Below are positions 1,470 through 42,420 of a DNA stretch of 64,000 nt, piece by piece. The position numbers and the translations under genes are program-made. Every line of letters starts with the position of its first letter. Within the stretch, counting starts at the first letter, position 1. Source of the stretch: Lutibacter flavus (GTDB lineage Bacteria > Bacteroidota > Bacteroidia > Flavobacteriales > Flavobacteriaceae); contig NZ_FZNX01000002.1 in assembly GCF_900188355.1 (NCBI RefSeq), forward strand, positions 248,001-312,000. Reading direction: 5' to 3'. Below the pieces are notes generated by a model. That model was not told the DNA's origin. It worked only from the letters and a program-made list of their open reading frames with translations, and did no database searches.

Positions 1470-2543
1470 TTAATATGCTTTATTTTTAGCTTTAATTTCA
1501 TTTCTTACCATTTTTCCTGAGGTTGTAAGATCAGATTCAGCCCAACCACCTGTTGCACTTGCACCTGGAATTAATGCTGCTGCTAATTCCTCTTTATCTG
1601 CAACTGACCAGTTACAATGAGAAATTTTATGTTCATCTAAAAACTCCCACCAAACTTTAGCTTCTTCAGCATCAATTGAATCATCTCCAGAGGCTTGTGT
1701 GGTTCCATATTCAGTAACAAAAATTGCGATGTTATTGTTTAGTGCCAACGTTGCAATATCTCTAAGATATTGTTTGTGCGTAGCTGCATAATAATGCAAT
1801 GTATATGCTACATTTTCATCATTAATTTTATTACCAATTACGTCGTTTACATTTTGAGACCAATTTCTTGTTCCACAAATAACAATATTATCAGCATCAA
1901 ATTTTCTAATTTCTGCAATTACTGCTTCGTGATATGGTTTTAAAACGTTGCGCCAAGAAACATCTAATGGTTCATTATATGGTTCATAAATAACATTTGG
2001 ATAGGACCCATATTTTTCTGCCATTTCAGCAAAAAAGGATTTAGATGCTTCTAAATGATTTTCGGCTTCGTGATCGTGCCAATCTATAATTACATAAATT
2101 CCTTCGGCAATAGCAGCATCTACAACAGCCATCACTTTTGCTTTTTCTATCTCTGGATTTGCTAAATAACCGTCGTGATCAACAGCCATTGCAGCTCTAA
2201 CAACTGTGCATTTCCAATCATCTTTTAGCCATTTTACAGTTTCGGGAGTATAATATTTACCAATCCACTGACTCCAAAAAAATGACATTCCACGAAGCTG
2301 AACAGGGTTCCCATTTTTGTCTAAAATTTTATTTCCAGAAACACTTAATTGTCCATATTCTTCAACTACTGAAGCAAAAGTTTGTGTCTCTTCAGTTGGT
2401 TGTTCTGTTTCTTCGGTTACTTCTTCGTTATTTTCTGTTTCAGTAATAGGTTCTTCTGAAGAAGATGAATTTCCACAAGAAATAAATATTGATAAAATAA
2501 CAATGAAAATATAGTTTTGAGCGAAAAATGATTTTAAATGCAT
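1470..2543 (-). CDS. GH5 family endoglucanase (cellulase) lipoprotein
   Basis: Glycoside hydrolase family 5 enzyme, likely an endo-beta-1,4-glucanase. It begins with a lipoprotein signal peptide (lipobox ending FISC, Cys23). A Glu/Thr-rich linker follows at about residues 29-55, then the catalytic barrel at about 65-350. The acid/base Glu is E191 in YNEPLD, and the nucleophile Glu is E278 in FVTEYG. The segments RGMSFFWSQW and KYYTPETVKWL are typical of Bacillus EglS-like GH5_2 cellulases. There is no carbohydrate-binding module and no type IX C-terminal domain. As a lipoprotein it is expected to be anchored in a membrane, perhaps on the surface. It is a single gene with no SusCD pair nearby, so it is not an obvious polysaccharide utilisation locus. 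Confidence 0.9.
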   Translation of the reverse strand: MHLKSFFAQNYIFIVILSIFISCGNSSSSEEPITETENNEEVTEETEQPTEETQTFASVVEEYGQLSVSGNKILDKNGNPVQLRGMSFFWSQWIGKYYTPETVKWLKDDWKCTVVRAAMAVDHDGYLANPEIEKAKVMAVVDAAIAEGIYVIIDWHDHEAENHLEASKSFFAEMAEKYGSYPNVIYEPYNEPLDVSWRNVLKPYHEAVIAEIRKFDADNIVICGTRNWSQNVNDVIGNKINDENVAYTLHYYAATHKQYLRDIATLALNNNIAIFVTEYGTTQASGDDSIDAEEAKVWWEFLDEHKISHCNWSVADKEELAAALIPGASATGGWAESDLTTSGKMVRNEIKAKNKAY

Positions 2544-25064: not shown

Positions 25065-25169
25065 ATTTCCTTTTTATAATTTGATGCAATATAGGTAATA
25101 ATTTATATATTTTTTGATTCCTTTATTGCTGAAACTTAACATTTAAAATATGATTAAATAAACGTTACA

Positions 25170-25202
25170 TAACAATTAATTAACAATCAAATAGTTTATT
25201 TA
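25170..25202 (+). promoter_or_regulatory. candidate Pho-type box before the CarboxypepD_reg gene
   Basis: ATAAC and TTAAC repeats with their C at 25173 and 25184 (11-bp period). Exactly 14 nt after the second C comes TTTAC (25199-25203), where other promoters of this region have TTTGC. A single TTAACAT also lies at 25136-25142. It is weaker than the sites before pstS, the porin and the TonB receptor. Confidence 0.4.
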
Positions 25203-25224: not shown

Positions 25225-25620
25225 ATGAGGGTTTTAATTGTTACCTTTTTTCTTTTAATAATCACTCAGAATTTTGGACAATCATTAAAAATGAGTTCCT
25301 TAACTACTGATTTTAATAAAAAAGGAAATATAGAAGGAGTTGTATTTGATGGTGAAAATGAAAACGAGCCATTGATTTTTGCTCAAGTACTTGTTAAAGA
25401 AACAAATACAACTGCTACAACTGATGTTGATGGTTCGTTTAGATTAAAGCTTAAACCAGGAAAATATTCATTAAAATTTAGTTTTATTGGATATAATTCG
25501 ATTGAAATAAACAATGTGAAAATTTCATCAAATAGTTCATTAAAATTATATCAAGTTTTGAATGCATTAAAACCTAAGACTTCTATTTCTGAGGGTAACC
25601 TTATTTCCAAAGCAAAATAA
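25225..25620 (+). CDS. exported stand-alone CarboxypepD_reg-like domain protein
   Basis: Protein of 131 aa with a signal peptide (cut near QNFGQS) and one carboxypeptidase-regulatory-like beta domain (about residues 35-115, GNIEGVVFDGE to LKFSFIGYNSIEINNVK). The same domain forms the N-terminus of the TonB receptor encoded next (FSFIGYQTVEIPNV). The two are clearly paralogous. Here the domain has no plug or barrel attached. It may assist the receptor in the periplasm, but its role is unknown. It may share phosphate control with the receptor, given the repeat elements upstream of both. Confidence 0.65.
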   Translation: MRVLIVTFFLLIITQNFGQSLKMSSLTTDFNKKGNIEGVVFDGENENEPLIFAQVLVKETNTTATTDVDGSFRLKLKPGKYSLKFSFIGYNSIEINNVKISSNSSLKLYQVLNALKPKTSISEGNLISKAK

Positions 25621-25621
25621 G

Positions 25622-25698
25622 TAACATTAATTTAACGGTATTATTACTATTAAATAACTACTCATTAACCTTTCATTTACTTAGTTGCTATTCCTTTG
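25622..25698 (+). promoter_or_regulatory. six-unit 11-bp Pho-type repeat array and promoter of the TonB receptor gene
   Basis: TWAC units end with C at 25625, 25636, 25647, 25658, 25669 and 25680, six in a row in exact 11-bp register (TAAC, TAAC, TTAC, TAAC, TAAC, TTAC). From the last C, 14 nt lead to TTTGCG at 25695. PhoB and PhoP recognise direct repeats with an 11-bp period (TTAACA-type in Bacillus), so several activator dimers could bind side by side. The TTTG lies in the expected -7 position, 22 nt before the ATG at 25720. Confidence 0.65.
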
Positions 25699-25719
25699 CG
25701 CAAGAAATTAAAACTAAAA

Positions 25720-28455
25720 ATGAAGAAATTTATTACTGTAATTATTATACTTATTAATGTTGTTGTATTCGCTCAGGAAAAAGGAACTATTTCGGGACTT
25801 GTTTTGGATAAAGAAGTTGATAACTCACCACTACCTTTTGCAAATGTATTTATTAAAGGAACTTCAATAGGAACAACTACTGAATTCGAAGGGAATTATA
25901 CTTTTCAAGTTGAACAAGGAACTTATACTGTTGTATTTAGCTTTATAGGTTATCAAACGGTTGAAATACCAAATGTAGTTGTTAGTGAAGGTGAAACAAC
26001 AAAATTAGATCAAATTTTAAGTGCAAGTCAGGGAGTTTCTTTAAGTGAAATTCAAATTACAGGTTCAACCAAAAAAGAATCTGAAAGTGCACTTTTAACT
26101 GAGCAAAAAAAGGCTACTGTTATTAAAGAAAGTATTGGAGCTGAAAGATTGGCAAGAACGGGTGTTTCTAATGCTGCCGCTGCAACTTCAAAAATTTCGG
26201 GTGTAACTAAAAATGAAGGTTCTGGAGATATCTACATTCGAGGTTTGGGGGATAGATATTTAACTACAACAATGAATGGTTTGCCGATACCTTCAGATGA
26301 TGTGGAAAAGAAAAACATCGATTTAAATTTATTCTCTACTGATATTATTCAAAATGTTGGAATAAGTAAAACGTATACCACAGAAAATTATGCAGATCAG
26401 GCATCTGGAAGTGTTGATATAACTACAAAAGAATATAACGGCGGTAAATTTTCCATTGATATTAGTGGAGGTACTAATACCAATGTAATTAAAGAGAGTG
26501 TTTTTAATAACTTTAGAGTAACACAAAACATGAATGATGTTAGTTTAGGGTTTTATTCAAAACAATATGCTCTAGTTGATGCCATTACTTTACAGAGTTG
26601 GAATAGGGAAACAAGAAGTACTCCGTTAAATTTTGGAGTTTCATTAACAGGAGGAAAAAAGGTTGAATTATTTGGCAAGGACTTATCAGTTTTTGCAACA
26701 GCCTCTCATGATAATTCATTTAGTCATGAAAAAGGAATTTTTAAAAAATACAGATCTAATGTATTAGATAATTCCTTTTCTGATGCTGAAACATTTAGTT
26801 CAAAAATTAACACTACAGCACTATTAAATATAGCTTACAAACTAAATGAAAGTAATAAAATAAGTTATAATAGTTTGGTAGTAAATAAAACTATTGACAA
26901 TTTATACGAACAAGGTAGAAATGGAGAAGGCTATGTTTTTGATCAAGATCCTTCAGAATATGGGGCTTTTGTTAGAGACCAAAACCTAAAGCAAACAAGA
27001 ATGTTTGTGAATCAGGTTTTAGGGAATCATAATGTTACTGAAAATAATGAATTGAATTGGGCTGTTGGTTACAATTATGTAATTGCAAAAGAACCGAATC
27101 GTATTAGAAATGAAGTAAATATATTAGATGAAAACACGGTGCAATTTGCGCACGTAGGTGATTTTCAGCAACGAAAATCTAGTCAAAAGATAAAAGATAC
27201 CGAGTTAAATGGGTATTTGAAAGATCAAATTACATTTAATGAAAATGGTGACAATCCATTAAAATTAATTTTTGGAGCAAATTTTCGTCAAAAAGAAAGA
27301 AGTTTTAATTCATTATTTATTGGTGTCAGAGCCAAGGGTTTTCAAGTAGAATCGATAGATGATTTATCAATAGCTTTTCAAAAAATGTATTTTAATAATG
27401 GTACAATAATTTTAAGGGAAAGAAATCCAGACATTTATAATGCCAATCTTAATTCCTATGCCGGTTTTGCAAATTTAGATTTTGGGTTTAATAAAATTTC
27501 AGGTAACATTGGTGTGAGATATGAGACTGATGAACTAGGTGTAAATTGGGATGTTTCAAATTATGTTGGTAGAGTTGGAAGTTTAACAAACAACTATAAT
27601 AATGTATTACCAAGTTTAAATTTAAAGTTGGAAATAAATGAAAAGAACTTTGTAAGATTTGCAGGTAGCAAAACAATAACGCTTCCAGAATTTAAAGAAT
27701 TGGCACCATTTGAATACGTTTCTCCAATAGGACGTGTTACTAAAGGGAATCCAGACCTTAAAGAATCTACCAATTATAATATTGATTTAAAATGGGAATT
27801 ATTTCCTTCATCTAAAGAGTTGATATCCATATCAAGTTTCTATAAAAGAATTAAAAACCCAATAAACCTATCACAAACAAGAGGATCATCAGGTAATTTT
27901 TCATATGATAATACTGGTGAAAAAGCAGCTATTGTAGGATTAGAATTCGAAACAAGACTTAATATTATTAGTAAAGAGAATAGTGATTTAAATATCAATT
28001 TTAATGCTACAAAAATGTGGTTTAAACAAGATCTTTTAGAGGAATTTCAATATAAAGGAAAAACAGAATCAGATTTACAAGGTGCTTCGGAATTTATTTT
28101 GAACACAGCATTAAGTTATTCAAATAATCAGATGAATAAATTTATTGCAACATTAGCAGGTAACTATTCATCAGATAAAATTTATGCTTTGGGAGCACCG
28201 GAAGATTTTGCTAATAGCGCAGTGTTATATAATGATGAAATTATTGAAAAAGGTTTTGTAACGCTGGATTTGGTTTTAAGTAAAAAACTGAATGAAAATC
28301 TCACTTTAAAATTTATAGGTAAGAATATTTTAAATCCTAATATTGAACAAACTCAAAAAGTAAAAAGTTTATCAACTCAAGTTGAAACAAATGAAATTAT
28401 AAGTTCATATAAAAAAGGAATGAACCTAAGTTTGGGACTTAAGTACACCTTCTAA
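25720..28455 (+). CDS. TonB-dependent receptor, likely phosphate-starvation regulated
   Basis: Outer-membrane active transporter of 911 aa. Signal peptide (ends VVVFAQ), CarboxypepD_reg-like N-terminal extension (residues 20-100), plug domain with ESIGAERLARTGVSNAAAAT, then GDIYIRGLGDRY (about 140-240), and a beta-barrel ending in the terminal LGLKYTF. The start is the ATG at 25720; a TTG eight codons upstream lies in the promoter. There is no SusD partner; a duplicated beta-helix lipoprotein gene follows instead. The Pho-type array suggests that the substrate supplies phosphate, for example a phosphorylated organic compound or a polymer. That is inference from control and neighbours. Confidence 0.88.
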   Translation: MKKFITVIIILINVVVFAQEKGTISGLVLDKEVDNSPLPFANVFIKGTSIGTTTEFEGNYTFQVEQGTYTVVFSFIGYQTVEIPNVVVSEGETTKLDQILSASQGVSLSEIQITGSTKKESESALLTEQKKATVIKESIGAERLARTGVSNAAAATSKISGVTKNEGSGDIYIRGLGDRYLTTTMNGLPIPSDDVEKKNIDLNLFSTDIIQNVGISKTYTTENYADQASGSVDITTKEYNGGKFSIDISGGTNTNVIKESVFNNFRVTQNMNDVSLGFYSKQYALVDAITLQSWNRETRSTPLNFGVSLTGGKKVELFGKDLSVFATASHDNSFSHEKGIFKKYRSNVLDNSFSDAETFSSKINTTALLNIAYKLNESNKISYNSLVVNKTIDNLYEQGRNGEGYVFDQDPSEYGAFVRDQNLKQTRMFVNQVLGNHNVTENNELNWAVGYNYVIAKEPNRIRNEVNILDENTVQFAHVGDFQQRKSSQKIKDTELNGYLKDQITFNENGDNPLKLIFGANFRQKERSFNSLFIGVRAKGFQVESIDDLSIAFQKMYFNNGTIILRERNPDIYNANLNSYAGFANLDFGFNKISGNIGVRYETDELGVNWDVSNYVGRVGSLTNNYNNVLPSLNLKLEINEKNFVRFAGSKTITLPEFKELAPFEYVSPIGRVTKGNPDLKESTNYNIDLKWELFPSSKELISISSFYKRIKNPINLSQTRGSSGNFSYDNTGEKAAIVGLEFETRLNIISKENSDLNINFNATKMWFKQDLLEEFQYKGKTESDLQGASEFILNTALSYSNNQMNKFIATLAGNYSSDKIYALGAPEDFANSAVLYNDEIIEKGFVTLDLVLSKKLNENLTLKFIGKNILNPNIEQTQKVKSLSTQVETNEIISSYKKGMNLSLGLKYTF

Positions 28456-28670: not shown

Positions 28671-30626
28671 ATGAAAAAAACAAGCTTTAAATTTATTGGA
28701 ATAACAGCAGTAGTTGCGTTATTGACGTTATTTAGTTGTGATGATAGTGATCCGAGTCCAATTATAACTCCTTCTAATTCTGTGATAGAAAACTTAAAAG
28801 TTGGAATTATGAATGGTCAACTTGAAGAAAACTTCACCTTAAATAGTTCAACCAGTTATGAATTATCAGGTTCGTTTATTATTCCTGAAGGGGTTACTCT
28901 TACAATTCCTGCAGGCACCCAAATTGAAGCCGATAATGGTGGTACCGATGTTTATATAGCAGTATTAAAAGGTGGGAAAATTAACATTAATGGAACAGAT
29001 AACAACCCGGTTATTATGTCATCTTCAAATGGTAATCCAGGAGATTGGGGAGGTTTAACTATTTGTGGAAAAGCTACCACTACTGCTGGCGTTGATGCCG
29101 AAGCTGAAGTTGGTGGGTTTATTTATGGGGGCACCGAAGATGCTGACAGTTCGGGAACTATAAAAAACTTAGTAATAATTGGTACAGGAGCTCAAATTAA
29201 TTCTGAATCTCAATATAATGGAGTTTCTTTTTATGCTGTAGGTTCTGGAACTGTTGTTGAAAATGTTGCCGTAATAAACGGTTCCGATGATGGTGTTGAA
29301 TTTTTTGGAGGGACTGTTTCAGTTGGTAATTTATACTTAGAAAATAATGAAGATGATGCTATTGACTGGACAGAAGGTTGGAGTGGAACAATTGATAATG
29401 CTTATGTTGCTCATACAATTGCGGGATTTTCAACTGTTGTTGAAGGGGATAAAGACAATAAAAATCCAAGAATCAATAATTTAACTGCAATATCAACAGT
29501 TGGTGGTACAGCCTTACAATTCAAAAAAGAATCTGGTGCAACTATTACGAACTTATTTTTAAGCGGTTATGATAAAAATATAGATATGAAAGACGGTGGA
29601 GCCTTATCTAATGTAAAAATTGATGGTTCAAATGCTCAAGTTGATGTTTCTTATAATACAGGCTCTCAAGTTGATATTTCTAATTGGAATTTTATCAATG
29701 GTCAGTTTGTGGCTCTTGAAGTTTTAAATGGAAATTTAACGTCTAATAAAACTTTAACAGCTGATACAAACTATACATTAACAGGTTCTTATATTGTACA
29801 AAACGGAGTTACATTAACAATAGAAGCAGGTACCAGAATCTCTGCAGATAAAGGTGGTGTAGATGTTTATATTGCTGTTCTTAAAGGTGGAAAAATTGAT
29901 ATTCAAGGTACTGAAGATAATCCTATTGTTATGTCTTCTGTAAATCCTGCTCCAGCAGATTGGGGTGGATTAACTATTTGTGGTAAAGCAACTACTACTG
30001 CTGGTGTGGATGCAGAAGCAGAAGTTGGTGGATTTATTTATGGAGGTATAGATGATGCTGATAACTCTGGATCTATAAAATATTTAGTAATTAAAGGTAC
30101 CGGTGCTCAAATTAATTCAGAATCACAATACAATGGTGTTTCATTATATGCGGTAGGTTCTGGTACAGTTATAGAAAATGTTGCGATAATTGATGGAGCT
30201 GATGACGGTGTAGAATTTTTTGGAGGAACAGTCTCATTAACCAATATTTATTTAGAAAATAATGAAGATGATGCTGTAGATTGGACTGAAGGTTGGAATG
30301 GAACCATTACAAATACATATATTTCTCATACAATAGAAGGTTTTTCAACAGCTTTTGAAGGAGATAAAGTAAATAACAACCCTAAATTTATTAATGTTAC
30401 GGCAATTTCTACTGTTGATGGTACAGCATTACAATTTAAAAAAGAATCTGGAGCAACAATTTCCAACTTATATTTAGAAGGATATTCAAAGAATATTGAT
30501 ATGAAAGATAATGGTGCATTATCTAATGTTCAAATTGATGGTAATGACGCTACAACAACTGATACCTATAACACAGGGACTAAAGTTGATATTTCTAGCT
30601 GGTCTTGGAAAGGGGCTGATTTATAG
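28671..30626 (+). CDS. internally duplicated beta-helix-type lipoprotein
   Basis: Protein of 651 aa. The lipoprotein signal ends LFSC (Cys23) and is followed by acidic DDSDP, as in surface-export signals of Bacteroidota lipoproteins. Two copies of a 300-aa module follow (about residues 42-345 and 348-651). They share VDVYIAVLKGGKI, DWGGLTICGKATTTAGVDAE, VGGFIYGG, AQINSESQYNGVS, DDGVEFFGGTVS and ALQFKKESGAT. The repeated turns suggest a right-handed beta-helix or pectate-lyase-like fold. No catalytic site is recognised. It takes the place that SusD has beside many TonB receptors, so it may capture substrate for the upstream receptor (inference). Homologues may be misnamed multidrug transporter. 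Confidence 0.7.
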   Translation: MKKTSFKFIGITAVVALLTLFSCDDSDPSPIITPSNSVIENLKVGIMNGQLEENFTLNSSTSYELSGSFIIPEGVTLTIPAGTQIEADNGGTDVYIAVLKGGKININGTDNNPVIMSSSNGNPGDWGGLTICGKATTTAGVDAEAEVGGFIYGGTEDADSSGTIKNLVIIGTGAQINSESQYNGVSFYAVGSGTVVENVAVINGSDDGVEFFGGTVSVGNLYLENNEDDAIDWTEGWSGTIDNAYVAHTIAGFSTVVEGDKDNKNPRINNLTAISTVGGTALQFKKESGATITNLFLSGYDKNIDMKDGGALSNVKIDGSNAQVDVSYNTGSQVDISNWNFINGQFVALEVLNGNLTSNKTLTADTNYTLTGSYIVQNGVTLTIEAGTRISADKGGVDVYIAVLKGGKIDIQGTEDNPIVMSSVNPAPADWGGLTICGKATTTAGVDAEAEVGGFIYGGIDDADNSGSIKYLVIKGTGAQINSESQYNGVSLYAVGSGTVIENVAIIDGADDGVEFFGGTVSLTNIYLENNEDDAVDWTEGWNGTITNTYISHTIEGFSTAFEGDKVNNNPKFINVTAISTVDGTALQFKKESGATISNLYLEGYSKNIDMKDNGALSNVQIDGNDATTTDTYNTGTKVDISSWSWKGADL

Positions 30627-30701: not shown

Positions 30702-31049
30702 TTAATTTATCACTATTGCTTTTTCTTCAACATTTGTAATTTTATTGTCTTTGTAGGTAATTACACTAATTTTATCTTCTTTAAAAAAAGTCCAGACTCC
30801 ATCTTTTTTACCGTTATTATAGTTTGCAATTGAAGTTTTATTTCCTTCAATATTATAACTTACCCACATACCATGTAATTTTTCTTCCTTATTAAAATAC
30901 CCTTCTTTTTCAATTATGAAATTATTATCAGCAAAATAATAAGTTGCTTTTATTAAATTATTGTCAACTTTTTTATATTCTACTTTTTGTTCTTGAGAAA
31001 ATGCTGTTACACAAAACAACAGTATAATTATATTTATAAGTGATTTCAT
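30702..31049 (-). CDS. exported MORN/YwqK-like repeat protein
   Basis: Protein of 115 aa with signal peptide (cut near TAFSQE). The mature part has MORN-like beta turns: EGYFNKEEKLHGMWVSYNIE, then GNKTSIANYNNGKKDGVW. These resemble the YwqK-type repeats of small periplasmic flavobacterial proteins. The function is unknown; such proteins are sometimes misannotated as nicotinic acid mononucleotide adenylyltransferase. A -7 element lies about 43 nt upstream. Confidence 0.6.
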   Translation of the reverse strand: MKSLINIIILLFCVTAFSQEQKVEYKKVDNNLIKATYYFADNNFIIEKEGYFNKEEKLHGMWVSYNIEGNKTSIANYNNGKKDGVWTFFKEDKISVITYKDNKITNVEEKAIVIN

Positions 31050-31105: not shown

Positions 31106-31145
31106 TTACCTTATTTTAAAGATTAATTAACATTAAGTTTACATT
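31106..31145 (+). promoter_or_regulatory. orphan Pho-type repeat in plus orientation
   Basis: TTAC, TAAC and TTAC with C at 31109, 31131 and 31142 in 11-bp register, with the missing unit at 31120 reading TAAA. The core is TTAACATTAAGTTTACATTA. In the orientation of the other boxes no coding gene lies downstream for 3 kb on this strand. It could act on the minus-strand MORN gene or on an unannotated transcript. Confidence 0.4.
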
Positions 31146-31412
31146 AAGTTTTTATAAAATGGATATAATTTATTGAAAATGAGATAAATAACGGTAATGG
31201 TATTCCACTCGAAATATTTGGAAATTAAAATATTAAGTATTTGAGTGTTTATTATTTATGTAAACAGAAGATACAAATAGTTAACGATTGCATAATATTT
31301 AGATTACACATAGAAAAAATTTAAACAAGATATTTGTTTTGTGTATAGATTGATTTTATACTACACCATTTCATATTAATTATTTGTTTTTGTCAACAAT
31401 ATTATTGAAATG
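31146..31412. other. gene-free stretch between MORN-like gene promoter and SulP terminator
   Basis: About 270 nt with no supported open frame, very AT-rich. It follows a plus-oriented Pho-type repeat and ends at a strong hairpin (31413-31444). A small RNA read rightward is possible, but I find no convincing -7 element in the expected place. Confidence 0.3.
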
Positions 31413-31490: not shown

Positions 31491-33353
31491 TTAATATTTA
31501 TCTTTTAAGTTTATCTTAATCCATTTTACACATTTCTTAAAGGAGTCAAAAATATGTTCTTCTGGTATAAAATCAGGAATAATATCAATACGTTCCATCA
31601 TATATCTTGGTTGTTCTAGTAACCCCACAAATAAAACTTCAACATTTTTCTTTTTTAGATCCTGTAACATATCTTCCATGGCATATAAGCCAGACTGATC
31701 CATATATTGCATACGTCCTAACCTCATAATTACTGTTGATGCAGTTTCTGGTATCTGTTTTGCTAATGCTTGAAAATCGCTTGTAGATCCAAAAAACAAT
31801 GGTCCTTTAAGATGTTTTATAAAAACTTCTTCTTTAAGATTTTCAGGGAAATCAATTTCATCTTTCCAGGCTTCTTCTTTAAGTGATTTTACATCAGATC
31901 GCTCCGCAGTAAGATCTCCAATTTTTTTCATAAACATTAAAGAGGCGATTATCATACCAATTCCAACGGCATAAACTAAATTCCAAATGCTAGAAAGCAC
32001 TAAAACCACAAGCATAATAATAACTTCTGAACTCACTTTTAGAGGTCCAATTTTCATGTCTCTTGGTAAACTTGGTATTGCTTTTAATCCTTTATAATCC
32101 ATTACGCCAATCCCAACAGTAATTAAAATTCCAGCTAAAACAGCGGCAGGAATTTTTGAAGCCACGGGACCTAAAGCCAATAAAATAATCAACAACATAA
32201 TACCAGCTATCATTCCAGATAACTTTGTTTTACCACCAGATTTAATATTAACTACCGTTCTGATAGTAGCACCTGCTCCAGGAATCCCTCCGAAAATAGC
32301 CGCAATACTATTACCTATACCTTGTCCAATAAGTTCTTTATTGGGTTGATGTTTGGTTTTGGTCATATTATCAGCAACCACACTAGTTAATAATGAATCT
32401 ATCGATCCCAAAAGTGCCAATGTTAATGCTGCTAAAAGATATGGTGAGATATTATTAAAACTAAATTCTGTAAAAATTCCAAAATTAGGAATAGGTAATC
32501 CAGAAGGAATTTCTTCAATAGGCCTATAATCTAAATTAAAAGCAAAAGCAACACCAGATACTACTAATAAGGCTACAAGTGTGCTTGGAATTGCAGTAGT
32601 AATTCGTTTAAATCCATAAATAATAAAAATTGTAGCTAATGCCAAAATAAATTCTAACCAAATTATATTTCTTAAAGCTTGTGGTAAAACTTTAAGGGTT
32701 CCTAAAACACCAGAAGCGTCATTTGCAGCAAGTGTTTTAGACTCTTTTAGAATATCTTCTTGTGTTGTATTTCCTGCTCTAGCAACCGTTTCAGTAAAAT
32801 TTTCTAATACTAATATTCCTTCTCCAGCTTCTTCTTTTAAAATATTTTCTAAAATAATTTCTTCAGCTTGAGGTTTAAATGATTCAACATAAGGCATGTC
32901 TTCTTTTGGATAATACCCAATAGCTGGAAGAATTTGAGTTACTAAAATAATAACACCAATGGCAGTCATAAAACCAGAAACTACAGGATAAGGTATATAC
33001 TTAATATATTTACCAAGACCTAATACACCTAAACCAACTTGAAATAATCCTCCAAGTAAAAAAACAGTTAGAATAATTGGAAGCGCTTTTGAAACATCAC
33101 CATCATTTACCGCAATAATACCTGCAATAACAACCATACTAACGGCAGTCATTGGTGCGGTTGGTCCTGAGATTTGAGTGTTAGTACCACCTAACAAAGC
33201 AGCAAAGAAGCTTATAAAAATAGCTCCATATAATCCTGCGCTTGGTCCTAATCCCGAGGATACACCAAATGCCAATGCTAATGGTAATGCAACAATACCT
33301 GCTGTGATACCTCCAAAGGCATCACCTTTAATATTTGAAAATAAATTTTTCAT
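31491..33353 (-). CDS. SulP family anion transporter with STAS domain (likely bicarbonate)
   Basis: Membrane transporter of 620 aa. The start (DAFGGITAGIVALPLALAFG, then SGLGPSAGLYGAIF) and GGTNTQISGPTAPMTAV are classic SulP. Some 10-14 membrane helices run to about residue 490. A C-terminal STAS domain follows (about 505-610, VIMRLGRMQYMDQSGLYAMED). There is an insertion of about 60 residues (about 150-215) with charged, probably periplasmic sequence. The linked beta-carbonic anhydrase gene 51 bp upstream argues for Na+-dependent bicarbonate uptake like BicA rather than sulfate. This is inference from the pairing. Confidence 0.88.
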   Translation of the reverse strand: MKNLFSNIKGDAFGGITAGIVALPLALAFGVSSGLGPSAGLYGAIFISFFAALLGGTNTQISGPTAPMTAVSMVVIAGIIAVNDGDVSKALPIILTVFLLGGLFQVGLGVLGLGKYIKYIPYPVVSGFMTAIGVIILVTQILPAIGYYPKEDMPYVESFKPQAEEIILENILKEEAGEGILVLENFTETVARAGNTTQEDILKESKTLAANDASGVLGTLKVLPQALRNIIWLEFILALATIFIIYGFKRITTAIPSTLVALLVVSGVAFAFNLDYRPIEEIPSGLPIPNFGIFTEFSFNNISPYLLAALTLALLGSIDSLLTSVVADNMTKTKHQPNKELIGQGIGNSIAAIFGGIPGAGATIRTVVNIKSGGKTKLSGMIAGIMLLIILLALGPVASKIPAAVLAGILITVGIGVMDYKGLKAIPSLPRDMKIGPLKVSSEVIIMLVVLVLSSIWNLVYAVGIGMIIASLMFMKKIGDLTAERSDVKSLKEEAWKDEIDFPENLKEEVFIKHLKGPLFFGSTSDFQALAKQIPETASTVIMRLGRMQYMDQSGLYAMEDMLQDLKKKNVEVLFVGLLEQPRYMMERIDIIPDFIPEEHIFDSFKKCVKWIKINLKDKY

Positions 33354-33404
33354 GTGATTTATTTTTATAGATAATTTTTATTTTTTTAGTTAACAATTTA
33401 AATC

Positions 33405-34034
33405 TTATTCAAAAAAATCAACGGCTCCTGTATTAATATCATACATAGCTCCAACAATTTTTATTTCACCCTTGCTTTGCATTTCTGCAAGAACAGGACT
33501 TTCTTTTAAGATTCTGTCTATAGTAAGTTGTACATTTTTGGTGGCAACATTATCAACAAATTCACTGTTTTTAGAGTTGCGTAAATTAGGGTCTTTCGGT
33601 TCTTTAATTGCCTCAACTGCTGGTTTTATTTTTGCCAGCATACTTGTTAAGTTACCTAATTTGGCATCATCACATGCTCCTTTAACAGCTCCACAACTTG
33701 TGTGCCCTAAAACAACTATCAATTCGGTTCCTGCAAGTTTGCAAGCAAACTCCATACTCCCTAAAATATCTTCATTTACAAAATTTCCTGCAATACGAAC
33801 GCTAAAAATATCGCCTAATCCTTGGTCAAAAACCAATTCAGCAGACACCCTTGAATCTATACAACTTAAAATTGTTGCAAATGGAAATTGCCCTTCGCTG
33901 GTATCATTAACTTGCTCTAATAAGTTTCTATTAGCTTTTAAATTATTTTGAAATCTGATATTTCCTTCTTTTAAAAATTGTAATGACTTCTCTGGAGTCA
34001 TCGTTGCCTGAGTTTCTTTTGTATGCGCTTTCAT
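33405..34034 (-). CDS. beta-class carbonic anhydrase
   Basis: Zinc enzyme of 209 aa interconverting CO2 and bicarbonate. Zinc ligands Cys in SCIDSRVSAE, and His and Cys in LGHTSCGAVKGA, with the catalytic Asp-Arg pair in DSR. No signal peptide, so it is cytoplasmic. It is the first gene of a two-gene unit with the SulP transporter, suggesting joint handling of inorganic carbon. A TATTTTTG element on the minus strand at 34109-34116 is a possible -7 box. Confidence 0.92.
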   Translation of the reverse strand: MKAHTKETQATMTPEKSLQFLKEGNIRFQNNLKANRNLLEQVNDTSEGQFPFATILSCIDSRVSAELVFDQGLGDIFSVRIAGNFVNEDILGSMEFACKLAGTELIVVLGHTSCGAVKGACDDAKLGNLTSMLAKIKPAVEAIKEPKDPNLRNSKNSEFVDNVATKNVQLTIDRILKESPVLAEMQSKGEIKIVGAMYDINTGAVDFFE

Positions 34035-34760: not shown

Positions 34761-34816
34761 TGACTATAAATTAATCATAAGGAAACATTAAGTTAACATA
34801 GGTGTTGGTTATTTGC
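34761..34816 (+). promoter_or_regulatory. Pho-type box and promoter of the porin gene
   Basis: AAAC and TTAAC repeats with C at 34786 and 34797 (11-bp period; TGAC at 34764 is two periods further left). From the last C, 14 nt lead to TTTGCA at 34812. A start site expected a few nt downstream lies at or after the ATG at 34818, which favours the later ATG at 34842 as the real start. Confidence 0.65.
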
Positions 34817-34841
34817 AATGACAAAAACTAATAATAATCTT

Positions 34842-36032: not shown

Positions 36033-36107
36033 AAATTTAACTCTTATTTTGTTTAAAATCTCTAAGAATGAATTCCCTAGAATTAACCTTAAATAATTAA
36101 TTTTCAG

Positions 36108-36143
36108 TTAACTTAAACTTAACAACAGGATCATTTATTTGCA
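36108..36143 (+). promoter_or_regulatory. Pho-type box and promoter of the pst operon
   Basis: TTAAC repeats with C at 36112 and 36123 (11-bp period), then 14 nt to TTTGCA at 36138. Spacing is identical to the porin and TonB receptor promoters. The pstS ATG follows 27 nt after the TTTG. Confidence 0.7.
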
Positions 36144-36167: not shown

Positions 36168-37118
36168 ATGAAAAAAATAGTATTTATTATCTCTCTTGCA
36201 ATTGTAGCAATTTCTTGTGGAGAAAAAAAAGCTGAAAAAGTAATTAAAGATACAGCAGCTTTAGAAGGAACAATTAAGGTAGACGGATCAAGTACAGTAT
36301 TTCCAATAACAGAGGCCGTAGCCGAAGAATTTAGATCAGAACAGCCAAAAGTAAAAGTTACAATAGGTGTTTCTGGAACTGGTGGAGGTTTCAAAAAATT
36401 CTCAAGAGGTGAAACAAACTTATCAAATGCCTCACGTCCAATAAAAGATAAAGAAAAGGCAGCTTGTGCTGAAAACAATATCAATTATTTAGAATTGGAA
36501 GTTGCTTACGATGGTTTGGCAGTTTTAGTTAATCCAGCAAACGATTGGGTTGATAACTTTACTGTTGAAGAATTAAAGAAAATTTGGGAGCCAGCAGCTC
36601 AGGGAGTAATAATGAAATGGAACCAAATTAGACCAGAATGGCCAAATGAAGAAATTCATTTATTTGGACCTGGAGTTGCCTCAGGAACTTACGATTATTT
36701 TACAGAAGCAGTTGTTGGAAAAAGTGGTTCAAGTAGAGGTGATTTTACAGCTAGTGAAGATGATCACGTATTAGTGCAAGGCATTGCGGGTGATAAATTC
36801 TCATTAGGTTTCTTTGGCTTAGCTTACTATGCTGAAAACAAAGATAAATTAACTTTAATTGGTGTTAATAATGGCGAAGAAGTTGTAAAACCAACGTTGG
36901 AAACTGTTAGTAACGGAACTTATAGACCTTTATCTAGACCTCTATTTGTTTATGTAAACAGTACTTCAGTAAAATTTCCTGAAGTTGTTGAGTTTGTAAA
37001 TTTCTATATAGATAATGCAGGTGAATTATCAGAAGATGTAGGATACATTCCATTACCTTCTGAATTGTACACGAAACAAAAAGCAAATTTTAAAGCTTTT
37101 GTTGAAAGCAATAAATAG
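36168..37118 (+). CDS. pstS: phosphate ABC transporter substrate-binding lipoprotein
   Basis: Phosphate-binding protein of 316 aa. Lipoprotein signal (VAISC, Cys17), then the phosphate site motifs [32 protein letters not shown] and [11 protein letters not shown], and later [10 protein letters not shown]. It captures phosphate in the periplasm for PstCAB. First gene of the pst operon, followed by a stem-loop that may raise its level relative to the permease genes. Confidence 0.95.
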
Positions 37119-37142
37119 TGAAAAAGAGTAAAGCAACAGTAG

Positions 37143-37168
37143 ATCAGATGTTTTTTTTGACATCTGAT
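37143..37168 (+). promoter_or_regulatory. stem-loop between pstS and pstC
   Basis: ATCAGATG (37143-37150) pairs with CATCTGAT (37161-37168), T-rich loop. There is no T-run after the stem, so it is likely a 3'-end stabiliser or processing site for pstS mRNA rather than a full terminator. Confidence 0.5.
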
Positions 37169-37191
37169 ACTACTTGTATAAAAATTAGTTG

Positions 37192-38070
37192 ATGCAAAAA
37201 ATAAAAGAACTTGTAATTGAAAAATCGCTCTTATTCAGTGCCTTAATTACAATTGCAGTAACTTTTGGAATCATTTCAGTTTTAGCAATTGAAGCGTTTC
37301 GCTTTTTTAGTGAAGTTTCAATTTTTGACTTTTTTACTGATACCCAATGGACACCATTATTCACCGATAAACATTATGGTATTTTACCATTACTTTCGGG
37401 GACATTACTTACTTCATTTATTGCAATTTCAGTTGCATTGCCAATTGGTTTATCAATAAGTATTTACTTAAGTGAATATGCTCCAAAAAGCTTTAGAAAA
37501 ACTGTTAAGCCACTATTAGAATTATTGGCAGCAGTACCAACTGTTGTTTATGGTTTTTTCGCTTTAATAGTTGTAACTCCTTTTTTACAGCAGTTTATAC
37601 CAAATTTATCGGGATTTAACTCTCTTTCAGCCGGTATAGTAATGGGAATTATGATTATTCCGTTTGTTTCATCATTAAGTGAAGATGCTTTACATGCAGT
37701 TCCAAAAGCACTAAAAGAAGCTTCATATGGTATGGGAGCAACTAAGTTACAAACGGCCTTTAAAGTAGTAGTTCCGGCTGCTTCATCTGGTATTATTGTA
37801 TCAATAATTTTGGCAATTTCAAGAGCAATTGGAGAAACTATGATTGTTGCTATTGCTGCTGGTCAGCAACCAAGATTAACTTTAGATCCAACGGTTCCAG
37901 TAGAAACCATTACAGCTTTTATAGTTCAAGTAAGTTTAGGAGATGTACAGCATGGCTCAATTGAATACAGAACCATATTTGCTGCTGGAATTACATTGTT
38001 TGTATTTACCTTTTTATTGAATACATTAAGTTATAGAATTAGAAAAAAATATCAGGAAAAATATGAATAG
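37192..38070 (+). CDS. pstC: phosphate ABC transporter permease PstC
   Basis: Inner-membrane permease of 292 aa with about six helices. Family-typical segments include LPLLSGTLLTSFIAISVALP, then GLSISIYLSEYAP, and the EAA-type loop EASYGMGATKLQTAFKVVVP. Starts at the ATG at 37192, directly after an in-frame TTG. It overlaps pstA by 8 bp. Confidence 0.95.
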   Translation: MQKIKELVIEKSLLFSALITIAVTFGIISVLAIEAFRFFSEVSIFDFFTDTQWTPLFTDKHYGILPLLSGTLLTSFIAISVALPIGLSISIYLSEYAPKSFRKTVKPLLELLAAVPTVVYGFFALIVVTPFLQQFIPNLSGFNSLSAGIVMGIMIIPFVSSLSEDALHAVPKALKEASYGMGATKLQTAFKVVVPAASSGIIVSIILAISRAIGETMIVAIAAGQQPRLTLDPTVPVETITAFIVQVSLGDVQHGSIEYRTIFAAGITLFVFTFLLNTLSYRIRKKYQEKYE

Positions 38071-38917
38071 TATTCAAAAAAATAGATTGAAAGATCAGCT
38101 ATTCAAAATTTGGGGAATAGCATGTACCTTATTTGGTTTGGTGTTGCTTGTGATATTTATTGGAGATATTTTAATAGATGGGATTGGCAGAATAGATTGG
38201 GGATTTATTACAGATCTTCCATCAAGAAAAGCTGAAAAATCGGGTATTTTTACTGCCTTAATGGGAAGTATTTGGATTTTGTTATTAACTACAGCAATTG
38301 CTTTTCCGGTTGGAGTTGCTGCTGGTGTGTATTTAGAAGAGTATAGTAAAAAAAATAGATTATCTGCAATATTAGAAATAAATATTTCAAACTTAGCAGG
38401 TGTGCCTTCTATTATTTATGGTTTGCTAGGTTTAGAAGTTTTTGTTAGAATTATGGGTTTAGGTGCTTCTGTATTGGCAGGTGCATTAACGTTATCATTA
38501 TTGATACTTCCAATAATAATTGTAGCAACCAGAGAGGCTATAAAAGCGGTTCCAAAATCAATTAGAGACGCTTCTTATGCGTTAGGTGCGTCTAAATGGC
38601 AAACAATATGGAATCAAATATTACCAGCTTCAGGTGGTGGTATATTAACAGGTGTAATTTTGGCACTATCTAGAGCAGTTGGGGAAACAGCTCCATTAAT
38701 TGTTGTTGGGGCATTAGCATATGTTCCATTTGCACCTTCAAATCCAATGGATGAATTTTCAGTATTGCCAATTCAAATATTCAACTGGATTTCAAGACCA
38801 CAACATGGGTTTATTGAAAACGCTGCAGCGGCAATTATTATTTTATTATTAATAACTTTCGTAATGAATGGAATTGCAGTTTATTTTAGAAATAAGTGGC
38901 AAAAGAGATTGAAATAA
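38063..38917 (+). CDS. pstA: phosphate ABC transporter permease PstA
   Basis: Second permease subunit, 284 aa. The region [20 protein letters not shown], the [13 protein letters not shown] segment and the EAA loop [20 protein letters not shown] are typical of PstA. It overlaps the end of pstC by 8 bp, indicating coupled translation. Confidence 0.95.
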
Positions 38918-38919
38918 CA

Positions 38920-39738
38920 ATGGAAAAATTAAAAGATAAAAAATTAGTTTCAGCTTCAACGGAAGATGATATTACATCAAAAAATGCTTCTAGAATTGAG
39001 GCAAAAGATGTAAAAGTTTGGTACGACGATTTTCAGGCAATTAAAGGTATTGATATGGTTATTAAACCAAATACAGTAACTGCATTTATTGGCCCTTCTG
39101 GTTGTGGTAAATCTACATTTCTTCGTTTATTTAATAGAATGAATGATTATGTTGAAGGATTTAGAATGGAGGGGAAAATAAAAATTGAGGGGAACAATAT
39201 TTATAAGAAAAAAGTAAATGTTGAAGAGTTGAGAAAAGAAATTGGAATGGTTTTTCAAAAGCCAAACCCCTTTCCTAAATCAATTTTTGAAAATGTAGCT
39301 TATGGTCTTAAAATTCAAGGAATAAAAGATAAAAAATTTATTAATGAACGTGTTGAGAAAGCTTTAAGACAGGCTGATCTTTGGGAGGAAGTTAAAGACA
39401 ATCTTAAGAAATCGGCATTGGCATTATCTGGTGGTCAACAACAGCGTTTATGTATTGCCAGAACTTTGGCAGTGCAACCTTCTATTTTATTAATGGATGA
39501 GCCAACTTCAGCTTTAGATCCTATTTCTACAGCTAAAATTGAAGAATTAATTCATAATTTAAAAGAAGATTATACTATTATAATTGTAACTCATAATATG
39601 CAGCAAGCATCTAGAATAAGTGATTATACTGCATTCTTTTATTTAGGAGAGTTAATTGAATTTGATAAAACGAGAAAGGTTTTTACAAATCCAGAAAAAA
39701 AGCAAACAGAAAATTATATTACAGGTAGATTCGGTTAA
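38920..39738 (+). CDS. pstB: phosphate ABC transporter ATP-binding protein PstB
   Basis: ATPase of 272 aa. Walker [10 protein letters not shown], the PstB-type [10 protein letters not shown]-loop [11 protein letters not shown], signature [13 protein letters not shown] and Walker [13 protein letters not shown]. There is an N-terminal extension of about 28 residues before the core ([19 protein letters not shown]). I take the ATG at 38920, 2 bp after pstA, over a start inside pstA. Confidence 0.95.
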
Positions 39739-39749
39739 AAAATAAAATT

Positions 39750-40412
39750 ATGATAAATATTGAAGAACAAAGAGTTGCTTTAAGTGACATTGGAGAAGAG
39801 ATGTTAAACTTGTGCCAAAGCCAAGTTCAGCATGCGTTTGAAGCATTTACAATTTTTGATACTGATTTAGCAGAAGAAGTCATTTTAAAAGAAAATAGAA
39901 TAAATGCCCTTGATTTAAAAATTGAAAGAGATACAGATAATTTTATAGCCCTATACAATCCGGTTGCAACAGATCTTAGGTTTGCATTGGCATTGCTTAA
40001 AATTAATTACAATTTGGAAAGAATCGGAGATCAAGCTTATGATATCGCGAATCATACAATAGATTTAAATCAAAAATTAGCACCGGAATTAATTGAAAAA
40101 CTGCAGTTTAAAACAATGTTTAAAACGTTGGATAGTATGTTTAAGGATATAGTTTCTGCTTATACAGACGAAAACCTAAAAGCTGCAAGAAAGGTATTTA
40201 AAAAAGATAAAGTTATTAATGAAATTAACAACAACACGTTTAATATAGTTGCAGAAGAAGTAGTTAAAAACCCTGAATTAATAAGACAGTATTTAATGGC
40301 ATTAGTTGTCATGAAGAAATTTGAAAAAATAGGAGATTTACTTAAAAATATTTCAGAAAGCATTATTTATTATATTGATGCAAAAGTTTTAAAACACAAA
40401 GGTAAAAAGTAA
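39750..40412 (+). CDS. phoU: phosphate transport regulator PhoU
   Basis: Cytoplasmic helical regulator of 220 aa with two PhoU repeats: NRINALDLKIERDTDNFIA..LKINYNLERIGDQAYDIANH and the C-terminal half with MKKFEKIGDLLKNISES. PhoU links PstSCAB activity to the PhoR/PhoB two-component system, whose genes are not in this window. Its last four codons (KGKK, stop region) lie inside a palindrome shared with the convergent Na/Pi cotransporter gene. Confidence 0.95.
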   Translation: MINIEEQRVALSDIGEEMLNLCQSQVQHAFEAFTIFDTDLAEEVILKENRINALDLKIERDTDNFIALYNPVATDLRFALALLKINYNLERIGDQAYDIANHTIDLNQKLAPELIEKLQFKTMFKTLDSMFKDIVSAYTDENLKAARKVFKKDKVINEINNNTFNIVAEEVVKNPELIRQYLMALVVMKKFEKIGDLLKNISESIIYYIDAKVLKHKGKK

Positions 40413-42206: not shown

Positions 42207-42301
42207 AAAAAATTCATATTAAAGTTATAAACTTACAGCTATTAATTAAAATAAAAAAGTTTATAAAAAATTGTAATTAATCCATATTCTTAATCTAAAC
42301 A

Positions 42302-42318
42302 TAACGTTTAGATTACAT
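42302..42318 (+). promoter_or_regulatory. candidate Pho-type box in the divergent region
   Basis: TAAC and TTACAT repeats with C at 42305 and 42316 (11-bp period). No TTTG lies at the usual distance, so its target is unclear; it might serve the leftward cotransporter gene. Confidence 0.35.
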
Positions 42319-42420
42319 GAAATAATGTTCAAAAACCGAAATTTGTCATTAACATAAAGCAATATTTAGGCAATCTAATATAGATGGCCTTCTTTTCATG
42401 TGTGTATTTTGGTTAAATGA

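Follow-up and report, generated by a model that had tools for sequence, protein, structure and literature searches.

A phase-locked array of six 11-bp repeats before a TonB-dependent receptor gene of Lutibacter flavus, a probable long Pho box

In Lutibacter flavus, six TWAC units in unbroken 11-bp register precede the gene of a TonB-dependent receptor, and comparison with related genomes makes it very probable that PhoB has its operator, a long Pho box, in this array, which would switch on the receptor, and probably the lipoprotein encoded behind it, under phosphate shortage. The array lies in a window of 64 kb, which is the whole stretch of DNA that was analysed. A preliminary description had placed six TWAC in exact register upstream of a TonB receptor gene and TTTGC 14 nt beyond the last of them, and the coordinates of both (the latter at 25695) were confirmed. 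The features concerned are:

25622-25680, + strand: array of six TWAC units (TWAC-N7), the predicted PhoB operator, with its register kept in 118 anchored relatives
25622-25625, 25633-25636, 25644-25647, 25655-25658, 25666-25669 and 25677-25680, + strand: the TWAC units as read directly, period 11
25695-25699, + strand: TTTGC, the putative -7 promoter element, 14 nt past the last TWAC unit
25720-28455, + strand: TonB-dependent receptor with Plug, CarbopepD_reg_2 and OMP_b-brl_3 domains (PF07715, PF13715, PF14905), the gene presumed to be regulated
28671-30626, + strand: lipoprotein-like ORF of 651 aa behind the receptor, lipobox judged by eye
25225-25620, + strand: stand-alone CarboxypepD_reg-like ORF of 131 aa, the stop codon of which ends one base before the array
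25156-25201, + strand: weaker Pho-type promoter match before the 131-aa ORF, 18.4 bits, E 1.8e-4 in the window and 0.011 in the genome

The units read, in order, TAAC, TAAC, TTAC, TAAC, TAAC and TTAC. TTTG is the core of the -7 element in Bacteroidota, and the receptor ATG at 25720 follows downstream of TTTGC; a -33 element is presumably missing at this promoter, as judged by inspection. The 131-aa ORF repeats, as a separate protein, the CarboxypepD_reg-like domain found at the N-terminus of the receptor. A Pfam search with the 651-aa ORF gave no match.

On both strands of the window, the receptor array is the sole run of at least three TWAC at period 11. In 200 dinucleotide shuffles of the window the longest run was two units (167 shuffles) or three (33 shuffles) and never more, in agreement with the earlier statement that six in line are unlikely to arise by chance. 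The plain TWAC triple was rejected as a genome-wide marker, as exact triples gave 13 matches in the whole genome, four of them the receptor array itself, against 19 for the reversed control pattern; there is no enrichment, and because the control exceeds the real pattern the triple alone is uninformative. None of the nine triples outside the array (L001-L005, L174-L177) has TTTG 14 nt downstream, as judged by eye, and only L005, which adjoins phoB, looks relevant. There, the triple (1501-1526, minus strand) lies between phoB and a divergent ORF, with TTTG absent at 14 nt; we take this ORF to resemble lamin-tail-domain proteins.

The preliminary description had proposed a search for the array upstream of related receptors. 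For this comparison 131 receptor loci were assembled, consisting of 22 from the genus, 80 named loci (the best 80 of 418 relatives) and 29 of 73 further family matches; a receptor match was present in 22 of the 38 genomes of the genus sample, L. flavus included, and in 74 of 149 in the family sample. Removal of L025, which is cut before the start, and of the repeats L039, L058, L060, L063, L064 and L132 left 124 distinct upstreams with about 70% A+T. Six of these are without TTTG, and the other 118 could be anchored on it. Register counts were anchored on the last TTTG[CT] before the gene and array strength was scored blind to TTTG; L121 and L140, read from a late start codon, and L059, probably read from a wrong one, were all counted as misses.

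A strong array was detected in 100 of the 124 distinct upstreams. All 21 genus members with upstream sequence keep one 11-bp register, with six (5 genomes), five (12) or four (4) exact TWAC, so that loss of the array in close relatives that retain the gene, named beforehand as grounds for refutation, was not observed among them. The upstream sequence is identical in the same-genus genome L022 and the Lutibacter record L039. From the proximal to the distal end, exact TWAC stands at the register positions in 80, 107, 57, 34, 97 and 107 of the 118 anchored upstreams, then in 6 and 0; because of this fall beyond the sixth unit, six is a conserved length with a sharp boundary. The exact units per locus range from 0 to 6, with at least four in 88/118 and all six in 8/118. 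Four or more of six units in some register were found in 92 of 124 upstreams and in 3 of 12,400 shuffled ones. Neighbouring registers at the six positions show TWAC in only 0-6 of 110 upstreams, and the one other register peak (36/110) reflects an extra unit farther upstream. A role of these regularly spaced, AT-rich words in bending or curving the DNA, and not as protein sites, would fit a period near the helical repeat and the AT-rich upstreams. We nevertheless consider it hardly conceivable, as the conserved letters are T-A-A-C including the C, which bending is not expected to keep, and most spacer positions are only weakly conserved.

Most relatives have degenerate letters at the middle units 3 and 4, where exact TWAC stands in 34 and 57 of 118 compared to 107, 97, 107 and 80 for units 1, 2, 5 and 6. 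Two PhoB dimers might accordingly occupy only units 1-2 and 5-6, with the middle as a phase-keeping spacer and the perfect six of L. flavus as drift. We regard this as unlikely, since unit 4 is TWAY in 101/118 (unit 3 in 44/118) and is therefore constrained, six exact units occur in five genus members, and cooperative regulators tolerate weak sites. The preferred reading remains an operator in which all six units take part.

Each of the 100 strong arrays has TTTG[CT] at 14 nt (82 arrays) or 25 nt (18 arrays), i.e. at 14+11n; three of them have another TTTG[CT] in range. The 24 upstreams without a strong array comprise 17 from the family or from unresolved MAGs and seven from outside the family. 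Eleven of the 24 keep TTTG[CT] at 14 or 25 (ten family or unresolved MAG loci and L048) and 13 do not; among the 17, the weak and out-of-phase loci are L059, L109, L119, L121, L133, L140 and L141, three of which probably have a wrong start. From record titles and taxonomy we take L040, L041, L042, L045, L048, L112 and L117 to lie outside the Flavobacteriaceae. Six of these seven show no array, and that of L048 is partial, with gap 14; the array is thus a trait of the family and not of the receptor as such. At 55-60% identity the receptors of the six loci without an array (L040, L041, L042, L045, L112, L117) are nearer than those of many members of the family; a transfer of the gene that left the promoter behind is a possible explanation for the outside-family receptors.

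We were interested whether other phosphate genes share the units and the phase of the array. The window also holds a Na/Pi symporter and the following features:

34769-34817, + strand: Pho-type promoter of the porin gene, three positions, gap 14, middle position AAAC, 33.4 bits
34818-36032, + strand: phosphate-selective porin O/P family protein (Porin_O_P)
36095-36143, + strand: Pho-type promoter of pstS, three units (TAAT, TAAC, TAAC), gap 14, 36.6 bits in the window
36168-40412, + strand: pstS, pstC, pstA, pstB and phoU
42289-42330: a second Pho-type match, more distant from the PHO4 transporter on its upstream side, 15.4 bits
42420-42465, + strand: Pho-type promoter of the PHO4 transporter, two units, gap 25, 14.6 bits, E 0.0028 in the window and 0.2 in the genome
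42618-44876, + strand: PHO4-family phosphate transporter

The pstS, porin and PHO4 promoters share the units and phase of the receptor array, the PHO4 sites being weak genome-wide. In the pstS, porin, PHO4, phoB and lipoprotein upstreams the TTTG anchor was chosen in favour of the first two units and only units from the third onward are unbiased; read in this way, pstS has exact TWAC at positions 1 and 2 in 22/24 and 24/24 anchored upstreams and TWAY at position 3 in 21/24, the porin gene has TWAC at position 1 in 18/24 and position 2 in 8/24 and TWAY at position 3 in 22/24, and the PHO4 gene has TWAC in 0/33 at position 1, 25/33 at position 2 and 27/33 at position 3, i.e. two units at gap 25. 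The promoter of the lipoprotein gene itself gave no clean register (91 upstreams, 43 with TTTG[CT]), and the scheme fits it poorly. The stretch from the receptor pair to the pst operon includes genes for a SulP-type transporter and a carbonic anhydrase (31491-34034).

A sequence-only promoter model (R1) was built from 45 of 46 selected receptor, pstS and porin promoter segments of other genomes (porin segment L079 was left out), and its search of the 3.9-Mb genome, in which 150 of 7,868 first-look candidates were scored, gave 51 hits. The pstS promoter (36.5 bits) ranked first in the whole genome, followed by the porin (33.4 bits) and receptor (25.4 bits) promoters and then the 131-aa ORF site (18.4 bits); because the model was trained on the former three promoter classes, their ranking shows conservation. 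Weak sites that precede the PHO4 gene and the 131-aa ORF, neither of which was used in training, also rank within the top ten. Seven of these ten are inside the window, a stretch that makes up 1.6% of the genome, and the PHO4 gene accounts for two of the seven (E 0.09 and 0.2). Another hit adjoins phoB (E 0.14). The remaining hits, one on C6 at 359 bp upstream of a LacI-like ORF and one on C5 within a 446-aa ORF, may be chance. A further match (31124-31148, + strand, 15.8 bits) is located between two minus-strand genes, ORF 30702-31049 and the SulP gene (31491-33353).

A PhoB/PhoR pair is encoded in the L. flavus genome, elsewhere on the same contig (C7:105532) and not beside the receptor. The regulator (L009) shows receiver and winged-helix domains and its partner kinase domains. 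With 209 bits L009 is below the NCBIfam TIGR02154 cut-off of 296.2, so its name PhoB rests on context and orthology; MtrA and RegX3 are its best-scoring solved relatives. PhoB and PhoR relatives are inside the examined flanks of 26 of the 80 named loci, and in 20 of the 80 phoB is divergent from the receptor at a distance of 178-434 bp. The intervening region contains a strong array in 16 of these 20; that of the other four (L052, L100, L102 and L104) is degenerate and has gap 25. All 20 divergent PhoBs are 70-79% identical to L. flavus PhoB and 28-38% to three other full-length regulators. As regards the other neighbours of the receptor, a relative of the 651-aa ORF is downstream in 79/80 named loci (tblastn E up to 1e-8), and the dGTPase which is the upstream neighbour in L. 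flavus is also within the flanks of 43/80.

Above unit 1, at distances of 8 and 19 bp and out of phase with the six, an additional pair of units is present in 16/19 divergent-phoB loci versus 6/51 other named loci (Fisher 2e-8, an optimistic P as the loci are related); L043, with a distance of 434 bp, was left out. A quick tree built from 62 receptors shows about ten changes for the divergent-phoB trait and about ten for the extra pair, so that their association is not due to one event. Examples with the pair just above the array are L053, L055, L056, L099, L115 and others. The promoter served by the extra pair may be that of phoB. A search of 33 phoB upstreams for an array directed towards phoB found TTTG[CT] in 16 and, in those 16, TWAC at none of nine register positions.

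Direct repeats of 11 bp are common to the OmpR family of regulators as a whole, at least three more full-length paralogues are encoded in the genome, and the PhoP motif of Riemerella is described as ArcA-like in the text consulted (PMC9603813), all of which would also suit binding of the array by another OmpR/PhoB-family regulator in response to a different stress, with the phosphate genes nearby by coincidence. This is very improbable, as the regulator encoded divergently from the receptor at 20 named loci is orthologous to L009 and not to L010-L012, and matching units in matching phase precede the pstS, porin and PHO4 genes. The original suggestion of a PhoB/PhoP-type regulator is thus supported from the sequence side, and by analogy also from the strong induction of a probable Flavobacterium johnsoniae counterpart.

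This counterpart is Fjoh_0545, encoded beside phoBR and listed with 8.02 in the FC column under phosphate depletion (the text uses log2FC) in the part of the study consulted (PMC8115612), in which the following lipoprotein gene Fjoh_0546 reaches 9.91 and PhoB 3.06 in the same column; the OprP gene Fjoh_0542, also beside phoBR, was not induced (-1.3, FDR 0.245). The word 'promoter' is absent from the main text of that source. As in L. flavus, a receptor with PF07715, PF13715 and PF14905 is followed by a lipoprotein; the pair is beside phoBR in F. johnsoniae (PMC8115612), whereas the L. flavus receptor is not. The Flavobacterium MAG loci L089 and L104 show the order phoR, phoB, receptor, lipoprotein relative, which is not that of L. 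flavus. From this gene order and the matching domain set, the L. flavus receptor is probably the same functional gene as Fjoh_0545. L104, which serves best as a proxy for F. johnsoniae, carries PF00593 instead of PF14905 in its receptor and has a degenerate array (score 6 of 12, gap 25).

A plausible course of events would be that PhoR phosphorylates PhoB when phosphate is short and that phosphorylated PhoB aligns head to tail on the six 11-bp units along one helix face, the number of units suggesting most simply three dimers. Weak middle units would be filled through cooperativity, as ArcA fills weaker repeats. The very strong or graded response suggested at first would be a possible consequence. 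With the proximal unit fixed 14 nt from the -7 element, the last PhoB subunit would contact RNA polymerase in place of a -33 element; it is the exact phase to TTTG that would allow the proximal subunit to meet the polymerase. We tentatively extend this to a tally for the Flavobacteriaceae, which is possible and falls short of being probable: PhoB units would stand only at 14+11n from the -7 element, in a number specific to each gene. If true, this number would be two for the PHO4 transporter, three each for pstS and the porin, six for the receptor, and six plus the offset pair where phoB is divergent, and PhoB would assemble head to tail into a short filament, the length of which sets threshold and gain per gene. 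The array gives a Pho-box grammar that can be tested across a large bacterial family, phosphate regulons may become predictable from sequence, and the effect of array length on the response can be tried on natural promoters in which one regulator has two, three or six units.

In the open-licence literature, surveyed mostly at title level, no multi-unit Pho box was found for Flavobacteriaceae or Bacteroidota. For B. fragilis, binding of PhoB to the pst promoter is described, the text consulted giving no box (PMC3547664), and putative Pho boxes are marked in plcP clusters of marine bacteria including flavobacteria (PMC4796936, seen in part); the latter and the Riemerella PhoP motif are the nearest described to the Flavobacteriaceae array. 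In Riemerella anatipestifer, PhoP is likewise a Bacteroidota regulator of the PhoB/PhoP type, the top DAP-seq letters are TTTAACA and a TonB receptor promoter was in the EMSA set; it differs in that most direct targets rose in the deletion mutant, and array, phase and unit number are absent from the text consulted (PMC9603813). As 34 of 50 direct targets, including one TonB receptor, were up on phoP deletion, PhoP may repress there (PMC9603813, in the part consulted).

Among the better known systems, and as far as the excerpts consulted go, the Pho box of E. coli PhoB is similar in its 11-nt direct repeats, head-to-tail binding, phosphate genes and multiple boxes at ugp; its unit is CTGTCAT versus TTWAC here, and its box has two units versus six phased ones (PMC4415409). 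The array does not match the letters CTGTCAT, a mismatch which does not define the family because the Pho box consensus differs from one species to another (PMC4415409). For E. coli PhoB, a strict distance of the box from the core promoter is likewise reported in the text consulted (PMC10294691). Very similar letters occur in the cyanobacterial SphR Pho box, with at least three tandem 8-bp repeats CTTAACCT and 3-bp linkers, i.e. period 11; three units are modelled there versus six here, and the phylum is different (PMC1906773, seen in part). E. coli ArcA binds cooperatively to two to five direct repeats, mostly 11-bp spaced and with extra repeats often weaker, in footprints of 30-60+ bp, so that 'usually two to four units', as first stated, is fair as background; ArcA is treated there mainly as a repressor and has a site-dependent repeat number, whereas here six are conserved at one promoter (PMC3798270, in the text consulted). 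Set beside these systems, the receptor array belongs to a familiar type of element, here unusually long and in strict phase, i.e. a phase-locked Pho box.
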